Part shown: one piece after another, positions 14,778 through 46,200 of the stretch
Layout: the number at the start of each line of letters is the position of its first letter
How positions within the stretch are numbered: the first letter of the stretch is position 1
Source: Phorcus lineatus
Lineage: Eukaryota > Mollusca > Gastropoda > Trochida > Trochidae
Reading direction: 5' to 3'
DNA: 64,000 nucleotides
NCBI GenBank assembly: GCA_921293015.1
Contig: OV121088.1
Span: 28,557,645-28,621,644, forward strand
Notes under the pieces: generated by a model
What the model saw: only the letters and a program-made list of their open reading frames with translations
The model's database searches: none
What the model was told of the DNA's origin: nothing
Program-made: the position numbers and the translations under genes

Positions 14778-15785
14778 TCAGTATCGGGTATGGCCACCAT
14801 TGGCATTGATTATTGCTTGGCACCGACGACCCATGGATGCAATCAAGTTGTCAATCACAGCCTATTGAATGTTCTGCCATTCGTGCTGACGTGCTGCAAG
14901 AAGTCCTGGAAGTGTTCGGGGTGGTGGATTCCTACTGCGCACGCGTCGATCCAGTTCGTCCCAGAGATGCTCAATTGGTGACAAATCTGGTGACCTGGCT
15001 GGCCATGGCAATGTCTGGACATTGTTATGCTGTATAAGGTCTTGACAAACGCGTGCAACATGTAGTCGAGCATTGTCCTGCTGAAAGAGACCACCATGGA
15101 CGTTGACGTGAGGAATAGCGTAAGGCTGTAAGATCAAGTCCCTATACCGTACTCCTGTGAGGTTACCCACAACATGCACAAGGGGTGTCCTAACACCGTG
15201 ACGAATCCCGGCCCACACCATGACACTCCCACCCCCTAATGGGATAACCTCCTGAACACAGTTGGCAGCATAACGTTCTCCACGACATCGGTATACACGT
15301 GCTCGTCCATCACTTCGTCGAAGCAGAAAATGGGACTCATCAGTGAAGAGAACGGTTCTCCACCTTGCACGTGCCCATCTCATCCTCTGTTGACACCACT
15401 GGAGACGTTCCGCCAGATGACGTTGGGTTAAAACGGGACGTCGAACCGGTCGTCGTGGAAAAAGTCCAGCCTCTCTCAGCCCGTTGCGTACCGTTTGGTC
15501 GGAAATTCGACGCAGGCCTGGTGTCTGCGTTGTTGTTGACGTTGCTGTTCATGTGCGTTCCCGAAGGTGGAGCAGTCGGATGTACCGATCTTGGGCCCGA
15601 GTAGTCACCCTTGGTCTGCCTGACCTTGGCCTATCATCAACGCTATTTCGGGTGTTGAAACGGGTTCACAATGAAAAGATGGTCTGTCTGGACACGCCAA
15701 AGTGTGTTGCAACATCTGGCTGCGTCGCTCCTGCTTGCAGTCTGCGAATAACGTTGTTGCGTTGCGCTCTGTTCAGTCTTGGCAT
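14778..15785 (-). pseudogene. Tc1-like DD34E transposase, three in-frame stops
   Basis: One uninterrupted minus-strand frame from ATG at 15785 to TGA at 14778 spans 335 codons, the usual length for Tc1 transposases. The N-terminal part has helix-turn-helix-like sequence (VATHFGVSRQTIF). The catalytic core shows the first Asp in FTDESHF, the second in QQDNARLH and Glu in SPIEHLWD, with 34 residues between the second Asp and Glu. It ends GGHTRY. Nonsense codons occur at codon 40 (TGA), 79 (TGA) and 308 (TAG). All three are explicable by single transitions, and no frameshift is seen. The element is recently dead rather than ancient. Confidence 0.92.
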
Positions 15786-15911: not shown

Positions 15912-17969
15912 AAATGCATTTGGACGAATCGCTCGTTTTCGTCACTGAACTTTATCCCAGACCCAAATGATTCAATGCAAGACTTAGAAAATTCACATTC
16001 TAACAATGATGATTCAATAGTTCGCAATAAGAGTAAGTTAAGTCCTAAGGCAGGGAGAAATATAATTTTGGACAGAACAATCGAACAAATTAAAGAACTG
16101 AAAAATTGTGAACAACCCGCAAATGTGAAATCCAACATTAGTTTCAATGAACGCAAGGCCATTAAATCATTATCGGAAAATGAGTCAATTATTATTAAAG
16201 AAGCTGATAAAGGAGGGGCAATCATAATCATGGATAAACCATATTATAAAAACCATGCGTTGTCAACCATTGGCAATCCAAATTATTATGAACAAGTAAA
16301 CCACAAATCAGATAATGCATCATTTTCGAAGTTAAAGAGATTAGTTAACTCTTACTCTCCCTGCCTTACAGATAAGGAAAAAGATTACTTAACTAACTTT
16401 AAACCTAAGACTAGTTACTTCTATGGATTACCAAAATTTCATAAAAGTGTAGATATAAAGGAAGGTTGCCATGCTTCAAATACAACCTATGTCAAATTGC
16501 CGCCCCTTACGGATCTAAAACTAAGACCAATAATAGCGGGACTTCAATGCCCAACACATAGACTTAGCAACTTTGTAGACATCCTCTTAAAGCCATTTAC
16601 AAAACATGTGAAAAGTTATTTAAGAGATACAACAGATTTTCTCAACCAGATACCTTCAGAAATAAATCCAAATACCAGGTTAGTATCATTCGATGTGACT
16701 AACCTTTATTCAAATATCCCTCATGACTTAGGTATGGAAGCAATTCATTATTGGTTGAATAAACATGAGAGGATTTCAAAAGATTTCATTATAGAAAATG
16801 TGAAATTTATCCTTACAAATAATAATTTTCATTTTAATGAAAACCATTACAAACAAATAAAGGGAACAGCCATGGTAACGAAAATGGCGCCAACTTACGC
16901 CACACTTGTACTAGGATACCTAGAAGAGTTATTATACCGTAAGGTTGGCTAAAAGTTTGGAGATGAAATCGAAAACGAATTTTAAAAAAGTTGGAAACGA
17001 ATTTTGGATGACTGCTTTATGTTATGGACACAAGATAATGATTCCTTGAAAGACCTACATAATATACTTCCCAATTTACATCCAAGTCTATCATTCACAA
17101 TGGAAGATAGTAACCAAAAGTTAGCATTCTTAGATGTAATGGTAACCTTAAAATCAGGAAATATAGAAACGGATATCTATTACAAACCTACAGATTCCAA
17201 ACAGTATTTAGACTATAGGTCCTGCCATCCGCGCCATATTGAAAATAGCATTCCATATTCCCTAGCCCGTAGAAAATGTACCATAGTATCAGACCCGAAT
17301 AATCTAAACTTGAGGTTGAAAGAATTAGAGAAATTATTAAAAGCCAGAGGGTACCCTGATAACATCATTTTGGATGCTATAACAAAGGCCCGTTCCTTTC
17401 ACCGGGAAGATTTTCTAAAACAAAGACAACAAGAAACAATTCGGCAGCCCTACCTATGGTTACTACATTTAACCCCTGCAATCCAAATATCTATCCAAAT
17501 GTGAAAAACTATTTACAGGCGCTAGACGCATGTCCAAAACTAAAGCACGCTCTAAAAGATACTAAAATGATAAACAGTAAACGGCAGAGCAAAAACCTGA
17601 AACAACTGTTATCTAAAGCTTGCTTTAAAGATCAAAAACCTGAATTAGGTGGAAGTATCACAAAATGTAATAATCCTAATTGAGGCACATGTACACACAT
17701 TTTAGAGTTAAATTCATTAACCTTTAGGAATAATTCAAACTTCAAAATAATGGAAAACGGGGGATACATTAAGGGCGAGAGTCCGAGTGCATAAACAACA
17801 GATTAAAACACCAAACTATAGATGTATACCCCTTAGCGAACATATAAATGAATGCGCAAAGAATTCATTTTCATCCTATTTGCAAATGCGCACAGATAAT
17901 GAAGAGCTGAGGAAAATAAAAGAACGATTTTTTATTGATGGATATACCCCTAAATTGAACTGTAACTAA
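15912..17969 (+). pseudogene. PLE reverse transcriptase / GIY-YIG polyprotein, inactivated
   Basis: RT-domain signs in order are KADKGGAIIIMDK-like text (EADKGGAIIIMDKP), YGLPKFHK, LRPIIAG, SFDVTNLYSNIPHD, a GTAMVTKMAPTYA block, then RILDDCFM carrying the catalytic LDD. The thumb-like region and a Cys-containing linker (KCNNPN, then GTC) follow. Damage includes stops at 16950-16952 and 16983-16985 between the GTAM block and the LDD motif, and a frameshift near 17440-17456. There is also a TGA at 17681-17683 where a linker Cys is expected. A deletion near 17745-17765 removes the GIY and YIG core. The surviving distal nuclease part runs from GDTLR-like sequence to TPKLN, ending at TAA 17967-17969. 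The first 25 codons of the long frame starting at 15837 come from Tc1 sequence. Confidence 0.88.
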
Positions 17970-18520: not shown

Positions 18521-18639
18521 ATTTTTAATGTTCCATATTCCATATATTGACAGCAAAACTAGAATGATAATACTGCTTTCTGATTGGTTCCTCATTTGGA
18601 CTAATTATTTCGCTTAGAATTACCTCACAATTCTCCGCG

Positions 18640-19769
18640 CACGTATACAAACTGCAATCCTGAAAAGACTGAAGCGATGTTATTTCCAAAAACGGGTAAT
18701 GCAAGTCCGAAACTTCCATTAACACTAAACAATACTTTAATTCATGATGTCTGTGAACATAAACATCTCGGTCTAACTCTACAAGAAGATGGAAAATGGC
18801 AGCATCATATTGAAAATATACTGCGCAAAGCAAGTCCACTTATCAATTGTCTGATAAGTTTGAAATATAGGCTAAATCGATTATTCCTTGAAACTATGTA
18901 TAGATCATTTATTTTGCCCATCTTTGACTATTGTGATACCATCTGGGACGATTGCACCTAAGAGCAAGCTAATATGTTAAAAAAAATTACATTTAGACGC
19001 TCTGAGGACCATCTCAGGATCACTTAAGGGCACAAGTCGCCATAAACTATATACTGAAACAGGCTTGTCTTCGTTAATTGAAAGGCGCCACTTTCACAAA
19101 TTATGTATGTTCTATAAAATGGTGTATGGATTAACTCCACAATATCTGTCGATATGGGTTCCACCAAATGTTTCTGACGTAATTCCGAAAATCTACGAGG
19201 CACTTCTGGGCGTTTGTCTCATTTTAATAACTCTTTTCTTCCATCAACTGTTAATGCTTGGAACTTGCTGGATACAACCATTAGAAATGCAGCCTCACTG
19301 ACACAATTTAAAACTTTGATTTCACGTGACAGGACTTTATCTCCTACATTTAAATATTATACATCTTATGGTCCAAGGCGAAGTCAAATTCTTCTCTTTG
19401 CCACATGCGCCTCGGTTGCAGCGATCTCAATTCACATTTGTTTGATAGAGGGTTATCAGTAAATCGCATCTGTTCTTGTGAAAGCATTCGGAAGGATCAT
19501 TTTCATTACTTCTTTAAATGTCCACTGTATGATTGATTCCGATCAAATCAATACTTTTTTTAAAAACGATATAACATTTTTATAACTCTTTTATTAAATC
19601 TGTACCAAATGCAAAGGTAGACAATGCTTAATATGAATTTGAGTTTTGTAAGAATAATTGCAAATATATATTTCCACCAATATATTTCTTAATATCTTAA
19701 TCGTTTCATGTTTGTTTCAGGAGAAGCATTTATATAGGCGCTGCCTGTTTGCTAATCTTTTTTTCTTTT

Positions 19770-38035: not shown

Positions 38036-38038
<3 letters not shown>

Positions 38039-38079
<41 letters not shown>
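38039..38079. repeat. (TA)n run left of the palindrome
   Basis: A pure TA run separated from the palindrome's left arm by about 32 bases. A second TA run directly abuts the right arm. Confidence 0.97.
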
Positions 38080-38083
<4 letters not shown>

Positions 38084-38153
38084 AGTTGAATTGGTTCAAA
38101 CGCAAGGTCACATATAGATTAAATATAACATACTTCACATAGTCGTTTGAAGA

Positions 38154-38214
38154 ATCATTTTAATCCGATACTAGTATTTCGTCAATAGTATTGACTCATC
38201 AGGGATGAAACGAT
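38154..38214 (-). ncRNA. Type I hammerhead ribozyme, left arm
   Basis: Mirror copy of the ribozyme at 38655-38715, with all core and stem nucleotides identical. Predicted cleavage lies between 38167 and 38166 on the minus strand. Confidence 0.85.
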
Positions 38215-38654
38215 ATGATCGTTAACATCGCATTACAAGCGTTTTTATAACAAAATATACGCACAATGTACAAGGATATATTGTAAATTATGCTAATCAG
38301 GTGACATCATGGTTCTTCCTTGTTGGTCTTCAGATTGACACAATCACTCTCTTATGAGTTTACCCCTTGAGCAATATGTTAATGTGACATAATCCCTTTT
38401 GTTTTTAAATAGCTCAATTGTAGTTAGAGATATATGTCTCTCTAACTACAATTGAGCTATTTAAAAACAAAAGGGATTATGTCACATTAACATATTGCTC
38501 AAGGGGTAAACTCATAAGAGAGTGATTGTGTCAATCTGAAGACCAACAAGGAAGAACCATGATGTCACCTGATTAGCATAATTTACAATATATCCTTGTA
38601 CATTGTGCGTATATTTTGTTATAAAAACGCTTGTAATGCGATGTTAACGATTAT

Positions 38655-38715
38655 ATCGTTTCATCCCTGATGAGTCAATACTATTGACGAAATACTAGTA
38701 TCGGATTAAAATGAT
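38655..38715 (+). ncRNA. Type I hammerhead ribozyme, right arm
   Basis: Core CTGATGA is at 38667-38673. Stem II is a perfect 6-bp GTCAAT/ATTGAC with an ACT loop, then GAAA at 38689-38692. Stem III is the self-complementary ATACT/AGTAT, and the cleavage triplet ATC ends at C38702. Stem I pairs ATCC (38663-38666) with GGAT (38703-38706), then across a small internal loop ATCGTT (38655-38660) with AATGAT (38710-38715), one G-U included. All invariant hammerhead positions are present. The loop-less stem III suggests cleavage as a dimer or on tandem transcripts, as in PLE and retrozyme hammerheads. Confidence 0.88.
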
Positions 38716-38750
38716 TCTTCAAACGACTATGTGAAGTATGTTATATTTAA

Positions 38751-38752
<2 letters not shown>

Positions 38753-38803
<51 letters not shown>
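38753..38803. repeat. (TA)n run right of the palindrome
   Basis: A pure TA run beginning at the end of the right arm. Confidence 0.97.
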
Positions 38804-45410: not shown

Positions 45411-46200
45411 TTGAAGAAAAATAAACTTATTTTCACCTTTTTCAAAACTATTCTGCAAATTACGTTCCAGCATTTAAAAAAAATAAAAAGGTACAGGAAA
45501 AACGAAGAAATTTCAAATTTGATATTGGAGAAGATTATAATGAACGCTTCTCCGTTTCAGAACTTAAAACTGCACTTGCTAAAGCACATAATACAGCAAC
45601 TGGTTATGATATCCATTATCAGCTCTTAAAACATCTTCCAGAACCTTGCCTTGAAATGTTACTGGCTGTCTATAATAATATTTGGGAAACTGGTAAATTT
45701 TCATCTTGTTTGCACAATACTACTGTGCCTATTCCAAAACCCGGAAAGGATCTTACAGACCCTTCCAATCATCGCCCTATAGCATAAACAAGCTGCGTAT
45801 GCAAAACTATGGAACGGATGATCAATGAACGTCTTGTTTGGTGCTTGGAATCCAACAAATAACTTACAGATATTCAATGCGGTTGCCGTAAACATCGCAT
45901 TGCCAGTGATCTCTTTGTATAAACAAACAATATGCAGTATCTATATTTTTCGATTTGGAATAAGCACATGACACAACATGGAAGCATGGCATTTTGAAAT
46001 ATTTATATGAATTTGGCATGTGATGTCCTATGCCTGAATTTTTATCAAACTTTGATCACATGATCGTCAATTTAATGTCCGTGTGGGTTCTACCCTTTCT
46101 GATTTATTTGACCAAGAAATGGATGTCCTACAAGGAAGCATTTTATCAGTCACACTATTTAGCATTAAAATAAATAGCTTGGCTAAAGTTTTAATGTAAA
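45411..46200 (+). mobile_element. LINE reverse transcriptase fragment
   Basis: Jockey/CR1-type RT blocks appear in order, in one frame interrupted by stops: FSVSELKTALAKAHNTATGYD, PIPKPGKDLTDPSNHRPIA, KTMERMINERLVWCLESN and IQCGCRKHR. After a frame change come a FDLE-type block and DVLQGSILS-like sequence. Both ends are truncated, and the catalytic YxDD region is not reached. It lies between the exon-like units 45.1 and 46.4 kb and probably belongs to the same LINE family as 18640-19860. Confidence 0.85.

Follow-up and report, generated by a model that had tools for sequence, protein, structure and literature searches.

What kind of event leaves a near-perfect palindrome, with a hammerhead ribozyme motif in each of its arms, between two tracts of TA repeats? 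The question is raised by a locus in a 64,000-nucleotide (nt) stretch of the genome of the trochid gastropod Phorcus lineatus (assembly GCA_921293015.1, contig OV121088.1, positions 28,557,645 to 28,621,644 of the forward strand), the whole of which we call the window. We conclude that the locus is very probably a single twin insertion, in which two 5'-truncated complementary DNAs (cDNAs) of a Penelope-like element (PLE) were joined head to head with their tips in (AT)n. More generally, the large set of young insertions of this family speaks for a mechanism in which both strands are primed, at two start sites, and suggests that hammerhead cleavage has been recorded in it. The features of the locus are as follows, in window coordinates, with RT standing for reverse transcriptase and pseudo-LTR for pseudo-long terminal repeat:

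38038 to 38079, no strand: (AT)21 tract read from the sequence, left flank and insertion target
38080 to 38111, minus strand: 32-nt tail between two putative RT start sites, at the left end only (on the minus strand GTGACC...TTTTC)
38112 to 38438, minus strand: left arm, the final 327 nt of the PLE pseudo-LTR, 5'-truncated, including the spacer at 38431 to 38438
38163 to 38206, minus strand: left-arm hammerhead motif from the motif scan, predicted cleavage between 38167 and 38166
38439 to 38757, plus strand: right arm, the final 319 nt of the PLE pseudo-LTR, 5'-truncated, without tail
38663 to 38706, plus strand: right-arm hammerhead motif, predicted cleavage after 38702 (55 nt before the arm 3' end)
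38758 to 38803, no strand: (AT)n tract, right flank and insertion target

A sequence-only reading of this DNA had described two arms of 319 nt (38112-38430 and 38439-38757) with one mismatch and an 8-nt spacer, carrying hammerheads that point outward, and this description holds: the sole mismatch is the G at 38217 against its partner at 38652, and the right motif lies on the plus strand and the left motif on the minus strand. That reading overlooked two features of the palindrome. The spacer, TATATGTC, is the onward sequence of the left arm, which gives true arm lengths of 327 nt (left) and 319 nt (right), and 32 extra nt stand at the left side (38080-38111) that are absent from the right. Because the tail is one-sided and the spacer belongs to the left arm, the palindrome is asymmetric. 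The locus is without any open reading frame (ORF) of the element from which the arms derive.

The arm is the pseudo-LTR, or 3' end, of an endonuclease-bearing PLE. Throughout the 958-Mb genome that was searched, it is a dispersed repeat with at least 46 matches (the best 40 of 1131 candidates scored), and a 27-nt pattern drawn from its 3' end was matched 896 times with one mismatch or fewer, compared with 0 for the reversed control. Longer copies show a full element of about 3.8 kb with the arm as its 3' end. One of them (L029; loci fetched for analysis carry L numbers) holds two ORFs, the second of which encodes 789 aa with GIY-YIG and RT together. The GIY-YIG domain was recognised by Pfam above its cut-off in both L013 (E 1.1e-07) and L029 (E 4e-07), while RVT_1 was matched at E 2.3e-06 and 1.3e-05, respectively, with scores of 27.9 and 25.5 bits that lie under the gathering score of 29.6 bits. 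An NCBIfam match to group II intron RT, at 24 bits against a cut-off of 300, provided nothing useful, and PDB sequences searched at E 0.01 gave no match. The copies display the hallmarks of PLEs, namely pseudo-LTRs, partial tandem or inverted arrangement, variable 5' truncation (with truncation points spanning about 1 nt to the full body of more than 3800 nt), and an optional 32-nt 3' tail. They also have an AT-rich target, with AT repeats directly adjoining 501 tailed ends and 376 tail-less ends, as counted with end patterns that allow one mismatch or fewer and themselves require the AT repeat (reversed controls 0 and 2). The earlier suggestion of a Penelope-like pseudo-LTR is therefore borne out by copies continuous with RT and GIY-YIG reading frames, and genomic copies beside a PLE were indeed found. 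The alternative suggestion of a retrozyme finds no support among the copies examined, whose arms are inverted and whose unit is continuous with RT/endonuclease (EN) coding copies. ORFs resembling the RT/GIY-YIG of another PLE family, recognised by eye, adjoin copies of the arm's family at L013 6469-7512 (minus strand) and L014 6294-6689 (plus strand). The window locus is nothing out of the ordinary for a retroelement of a known kind, and its value is mechanistic: the high copy number and youth of the family make it a natural record of many insertions.

Many of these insertions are head-to-head pairs with both 3' ends outward, whose arms extend, for example, to d=514/857, 36/1538, 437/127, 230/492, 1206/415, and 828/391, where d is the distance from the pseudo-LTR 3' end. 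The window twin measures d=327/319; elsewhere arm lengths are often unequal, and near-equal pairs alone appear as a palindrome. Near-equal twins with tiny loops include L052 (106/106), L049 (107/108), and L067 (both d=55). Position lists of the ends show 24 of 31 close neighbour pairs to be head to head. Of 29 inner junctions tried, 24 could be anchored, with microhomology of 1-5 nt in 9, flush joining in 2, and fillers of 1-22 nt in 13, a tally that leaves out the 5 that failed to anchor and includes 3 (L026, L042, L036) from outside the 30 clean twins counted below. Outward-facing ends of different insertions also occur 28-93 bp apart (C7:30467086, C7:34073797, C5:63795953, C5:43892628, and C7:1996576), which suggests that the AT flanks of older insertions serve as targets again. 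Further arm ends cluster at d=102-108, just upstream of the hammerhead core (L047, L049, L050, L052, and L060), a second grouping that is possibly an RT stop.

What distinguishes the two ends of a twin is the tail. A tandem copy of the element reads ..AATCTATAT, then the tail, then ATATATCGTGC..ACCATGG, with CTATAT directly before the tail. Because this copy shows both sites flanking the tail, the tail can be read as the segment that separates two internal sites. This agrees with work on an Anolis PLE, for which two RT start sites were demonstrated in vitro (PMC11167929; statements on this and the other cited papers extend to the portions of their text available to us). Site 1, before the tail, ends ..AAUCUAUAU and site 2, after it, ends ..UUUUCAUAUAU; both end in UAUAU, matching the (AT)n target.

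We counted tails in several ways. The fetched loci had been chosen by arm similarity, by neighbouring 3' ends, by extension (L029, L058), by scissile-site starts (L061, L062), or to check an exception (L060). An automatic list of these loci contained 34 adjacent head-to-head end pairs less than 6 kb apart, 31 of them with one tailed and one tail-less end; one insertion had been counted twice (L019 = L029), which leaves 30/33 discordant. This list includes adjacent pairs of L010, L014, L034, and L021, and scores L025 and L050 as tailed. When outermost ends were judged by eye, all 30 clean twins were discordant, where the script had labelled 28/30 so and L025 (an indel shift) and L050 (a 7-nt tail) were corrected by eye. 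Left out of the 30 were the composite loci L010, L014, and L036, as well as L034, L015/L030 (left end not found), loci seen as single arms, and a second small pair in L021 (tail/none, 88-96% identity). The position lists, which sample 164 ends among the matches listed (all exact, and hence young ends, from C1, C2, C5, and C7 up to 43.97 Mb), gave 23 of 24 head-to-head pairs under 6 kb as discordant, compared with 48% expected (p = 5e-7 under independence), and the chance expectation of such head-to-head pairs was 0.16. At the 24th pair (L060), a further, slightly altered tail-less end intervenes, and its adjacent pair is discordant. The automatic locus count and the position-list count have loci in common and are not independent. 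Finally, the unseen mate end of four further pairs was fetched and had the expected opposite tail state in 4/4; at one of them, L063, the tail-less end halts a few nt before site 1. Exactly one tailed end per twin thus looks like a rule.

These counts bear directly on the possibility that a twin is two independent serial insertions into one (AT)n tract, the intervening part having later been lost. Stacking on one AT tract does occur, as the five outward-facing adjacent pairs attest, and four loci (L010, L014, L036, and L060) look composite. Independence, however, predicts about 48% discordant tails where 23/24 were seen, and the preponderance of head-to-head orientation among close neighbours speaks against it as well. 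Moreover, rare template variants and deletion junctions are common to both arms in named cases: a private variant at d=78 in L049, a 2920|903 junction in L036, a 3514|55 junction in L048, and an altered scissile-position base at both ends of C11:51057341/51057611. We consider serial insertion very unlikely. Since several rare template variants are shared by the arms of a twin in this way, a single insertion most likely copied both arms, whether off one RNA molecule or off sister RNAs of one source, both of which would fit. For the same reason, the very recent event or gene conversion that the near identity of the arms had seemed to imply is not needed. Arms of one twin diverge by 0.38% on average (19 twins) and arms of different twins by 0.66% (761 pairs), a comparison of means only, without a significance test.

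Several observations pull against a single twin insertion with one tail as the general outcome. Single-armed-looking insertions exist (e.g. L012, L027, and L028), so that twinning is not obligatory. Of the three concordant pairs in the automatic list, L034 is none/none, with ends 3.3 kb apart and about 1.75 kb of other sequence between them, and is read as two single insertions. L048 scores as tail/tail and L057 as none/none; at each of these two, an additional internal end separates the pair, and the outermost ends are one tailed and one tail-less. L010, L014, and L036 are tailed at both outermost ends (one of them partial in L010). As to the shared template, an internal jump at L037 (994|93) is present in one arm only, and many single-base differences are private to one arm, so that one template need not have been copied exactly into both arms.

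Could one arm instead be a copy of the other? Self-priming, in which the 3' end of a cDNA folds back and is extended along the same strand to make a palindrome, was proposed for the Penelope of Adineta vaga, where palindromes are found at inverted junctions (PMC3846280). It would account readily for near-equal arms with tiny loops, such as those of the window, L052, L049, and L067. Yet an arm copied in this way cannot gain a tail or 5' sequence that the first arm lacks, and the tail-less arm is the longer one in eight twins (L020, L021, L024, L025, L035, L046, L050, and L053), which means that in these neither arm is a copy of the other. The tail-less arm is shorter in L009, L011, L017, L023, L033, and L051, which by themselves are compatible with self-priming, and length alone does not contradict it for near-equal twins, the window's included. 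On balance, we regard self-priming as quite unlikely; tail asymmetry together with the UAUAU sites favours priming on both strands over snap-back copying.

Two further explanations concern the palindrome as such. Inverted termini beside TA repeats resemble those of terminal inverted repeat (TIR) elements, which would make the locus a DNA transposon or miniature inverted-repeat transposable element (MITE) with long TIRs, moved by a transposase. The arms, however, derive from the 3' end of an RT/GIY-YIG element, with 5' truncations at many different points; they are usually unequal, and their tips are asymmetric. Transposase-bearing relatives with two symmetric ends were not seen among the loci examined, although no search was aimed at them, and the probability of this explanation is practically negligible. 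An inverted chimera arising in assembly or library preparation is conceivable since inverted repeats are error-prone in assemblies. The flanks nevertheless differ between left and right, the tail is one-sided, and similar twins recur with other arm lengths and junctions, all of which makes an artefact highly improbable. With these alternatives weighed, we return to the twin insertion and to the ribozyme that it carries.

The hammerhead motif assigned to each arm is present in full, comprising CTGATGA, a 6-bp stem II, GAAA, the self-complementary ATACTAGTAT, an ATC triplet, and a 4-bp stem I. A strict motif scan of the 64 kb found just these two sites, and none in 100 first-order Markov surrogates. 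The conserved core and three stems of a type I hammerhead are all represented, with a monomer stem III of only 3 bp closed by a CUAG loop. The covariance-model check that had been suggested was not favourable: Rfam returned no match at the gathering threshold, and under permissive settings the best hammerhead matches, both to type III, scored 18.6 bits (E 0.54) and 16.7 bits (E 1.9), where the cut-off is 48.5 bits. The top permissive matches were microRNA precursor families, all under their cut-offs, and were rejected, as a long hairpin may attract them. Folded as a monomer, the hammerhead region prefers another fold (z = -0.30), and the 44-nt core alone reaches -6.0 kcal/mol in another fold and -2.1 kcal/mol as a hammerhead. 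When two molecules are folded together, the double hammerhead is the minimum free energy structure, but this dimer gain is ordinary, being equalled in 109 of 500 shuffles. Each transcript through the locus would carry one sense and one antisense copy of the ribozyme, as had been proposed; that this amounts to one active ribozyme is doubtful, because the monomer core disfavours the hammerhead fold. Judging from these folding predictions, the ribozyme at this locus may need a partner RNA or protein.

A different kind of evidence comes from where arms end. The predicted hammerhead cut lies at d=55, where the new 5' end would read GGATTAAAATG. Exactly at this position, 63 arms begin without the normal preceding base, a count that falls to 56 when 7 point substitutions are removed; the same raw count, substitutions included, is 19 at d=54, 5 at d=56, and 3 at d=46. 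A total of 478 exact copies run through the site, such that about 10% of exact arms reaching d=55 end there (56/534). Upstream sequence differs each time at 10/10 scissile-start loci (L048, L056, L061, L062, and L067-L072), and both arms start at the scissile site in L061, L067, and L068. Two caveats weaken these figures: the counts at d=54-56 mix truncations with substitutions, and both arms of one twin may be counted. Among the scissile-start loci, L048 is a deletion derivative in which the body at d=3514 is joined exactly to the hammerhead bond at d=55 in both arms, giving a short non-coding form.

The plain reading of the pile-up, as far as the positions of ends can tell, is that it represents a genomic trace of hammerhead cleavage of some template RNAs before RT run-off. 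It might instead mark the start of transcription or a place where structure halts RT. The PLE pseudo-LTR is regarded as likely to contain a promoter (PMC11167929), and the cluster of ends at d=102-108 would be in keeping with stops of this kind. The peak, on the other hand, stands on exactly the bond predicted from the motif and drops at d=54 and d=56, and a stem would be expected to halt RT before stem I rather than after its whole 3' strand had been copied. A start site or RT stop in place of cleavage is thus unlikely. Under the cleavage reading, both start sites lie downstream of the cut, and cutting first would therefore leave a stub only, so that ribozyme and RT would compete.

From these observations we can outline how such twins may form. 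The PLE endonuclease would open both strands of an (AT)n tract, an ability consistent with the both-strand cutting and extension shown in vitro for the Anolis PLE (PMC11167929). Each free 3' end, ...ATATAT, would then anneal to element RNA at one of the two internal UAUAU-ending sites. Since the strands of (AT)n are identical in sequence and both sites end in UAUAU, either cut strand could prime at either site. With one end at site 1 and the other at site 2, the product would have, as a rule, exactly one tailed end, which is the pattern observed. The cDNAs would stop at variable points and then be linked in head-to-head orientation, either flush, across 1-5 nt of microhomology, or with a short filler in between, by whatever machinery carries out the joining. 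Both arms would share a source, being copied from a single RNA or from sister RNAs, as the shared private variants support. Where a template RNA had already been cut by its hammerhead, RT would run off the new 5' end and the arm would begin at the scissile bond. At the window locus, both arms would have stopped upstream of the hammerhead, at 327 and 319 nt, leaving the near-perfect palindrome.

We hypothesize, with slightly less than even confidence, that PLE integration is a built-in two-strand reaction, whereby a single RNA (or two sister RNAs paired asymmetrically in a dimeric complex) has both its UAUAU sites primed by the two strands of one cut (AT)n, one site each, while the hammerhead, which lies 55 nt upstream of the inner start site, is in competition with RT and yields a stub of exact length when it cuts first. 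Findings on the Anolis PLE fit less comfortably with these proposals (PMC11167929, within its available text): in vitro, that PLE showed neither a strand difference in start site nor homology of start site and target, where here both sites match (AT)n; insertion in vitro was independent of hammerhead cleavage, with ribozyme mutants having no effect; and its authors saw no RNA reads at the cut site.

Elsewhere in the window, remains of a second, different PLE lie at 16017-17960 (plus strand), split into several ORFs, whose protein is 32-48% identical, in three pieces, to the RT/EN ORF of the arm's family. Adjoining it at 14862-15548 (minus strand), in a patch of 46% GC, is a Tc1/mariner-like transposase ORF (Pfam DDE_3 and HTH_Tnp_Tc3_2). 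Two ORFs on the plus strand, at 18605-18961 and 45425-45787, resemble what we take to be fragments of the RT of long interspersed nuclear elements (LINEs); a Pfam search of both at E 0.01 gave no match.

From the tail rule and the scissile-bond pile-up follow sharp predictions, which can be put to the in vitro PLE system already in use and to other genomes. How PLEs form head-to-head pseudo-LTRs, for which the published guess is self-priming (PMC3846280), becomes testable, as does in vivo cutting by the minimal PLE hammerhead, which PMC7761336 calls a mystery. PLE hammerheads, tails, and head-to-head pseudo-LTRs are all known already, and what may be new is the counts. The literature on PLEs and hammerheads that we surveyed, mostly as titles and abstracts, held no tail count per insertion and no cDNA ends at a PLE hammerhead bond, which is not proof of novelty.

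Among known systems, PAc of Anolis, a PLE of the Penelope/Poseidon clade, shares with the present family RT and GIY-YIG, a pseudo-LTR with a hammerhead in it, a tail between two internal RT start sites, and, in vitro, cutting and extension of both target strands (PMC11167929). It differs in that its RNA reads, in the available account, neither start nor end at the hammerhead cut, whereas arms here end at the scissile bond. Further, the term 'head-to-head' occurs 0 times in that account, whereas the tail here is found on exactly one end per twin as a rule. Those minimal PLE hammerheads for which cleavage in dimeric form is described (Cervera and de la Pena 2014; Lunse et al. 2017, via PMC7761336) similarly have a very short stem III and a predicted double-hammerhead dimer, while the evidence in our case is the position of cDNA ends. 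Animal retrozymes likewise have a repeat unit of a few hundred nt that contains a type I hammerhead, yet they are short tandem repeats giving small circular RNAs (PMC7229834), in contrast to the inverted 3' end of a protein-coding PLE described here. The Penelope families of Adineta vaga have head-to-head inverted pseudo-LTRs, palindromic inverted junctions, and a 31-bp tail optionally on one of the inverted pseudo-LTRs, though at low copy number compared with hundreds here (PMC3846280). The authors of that study favoured self-priming on an antisense template, whereas the data from Phorcus lineatus favour two separate initiations.
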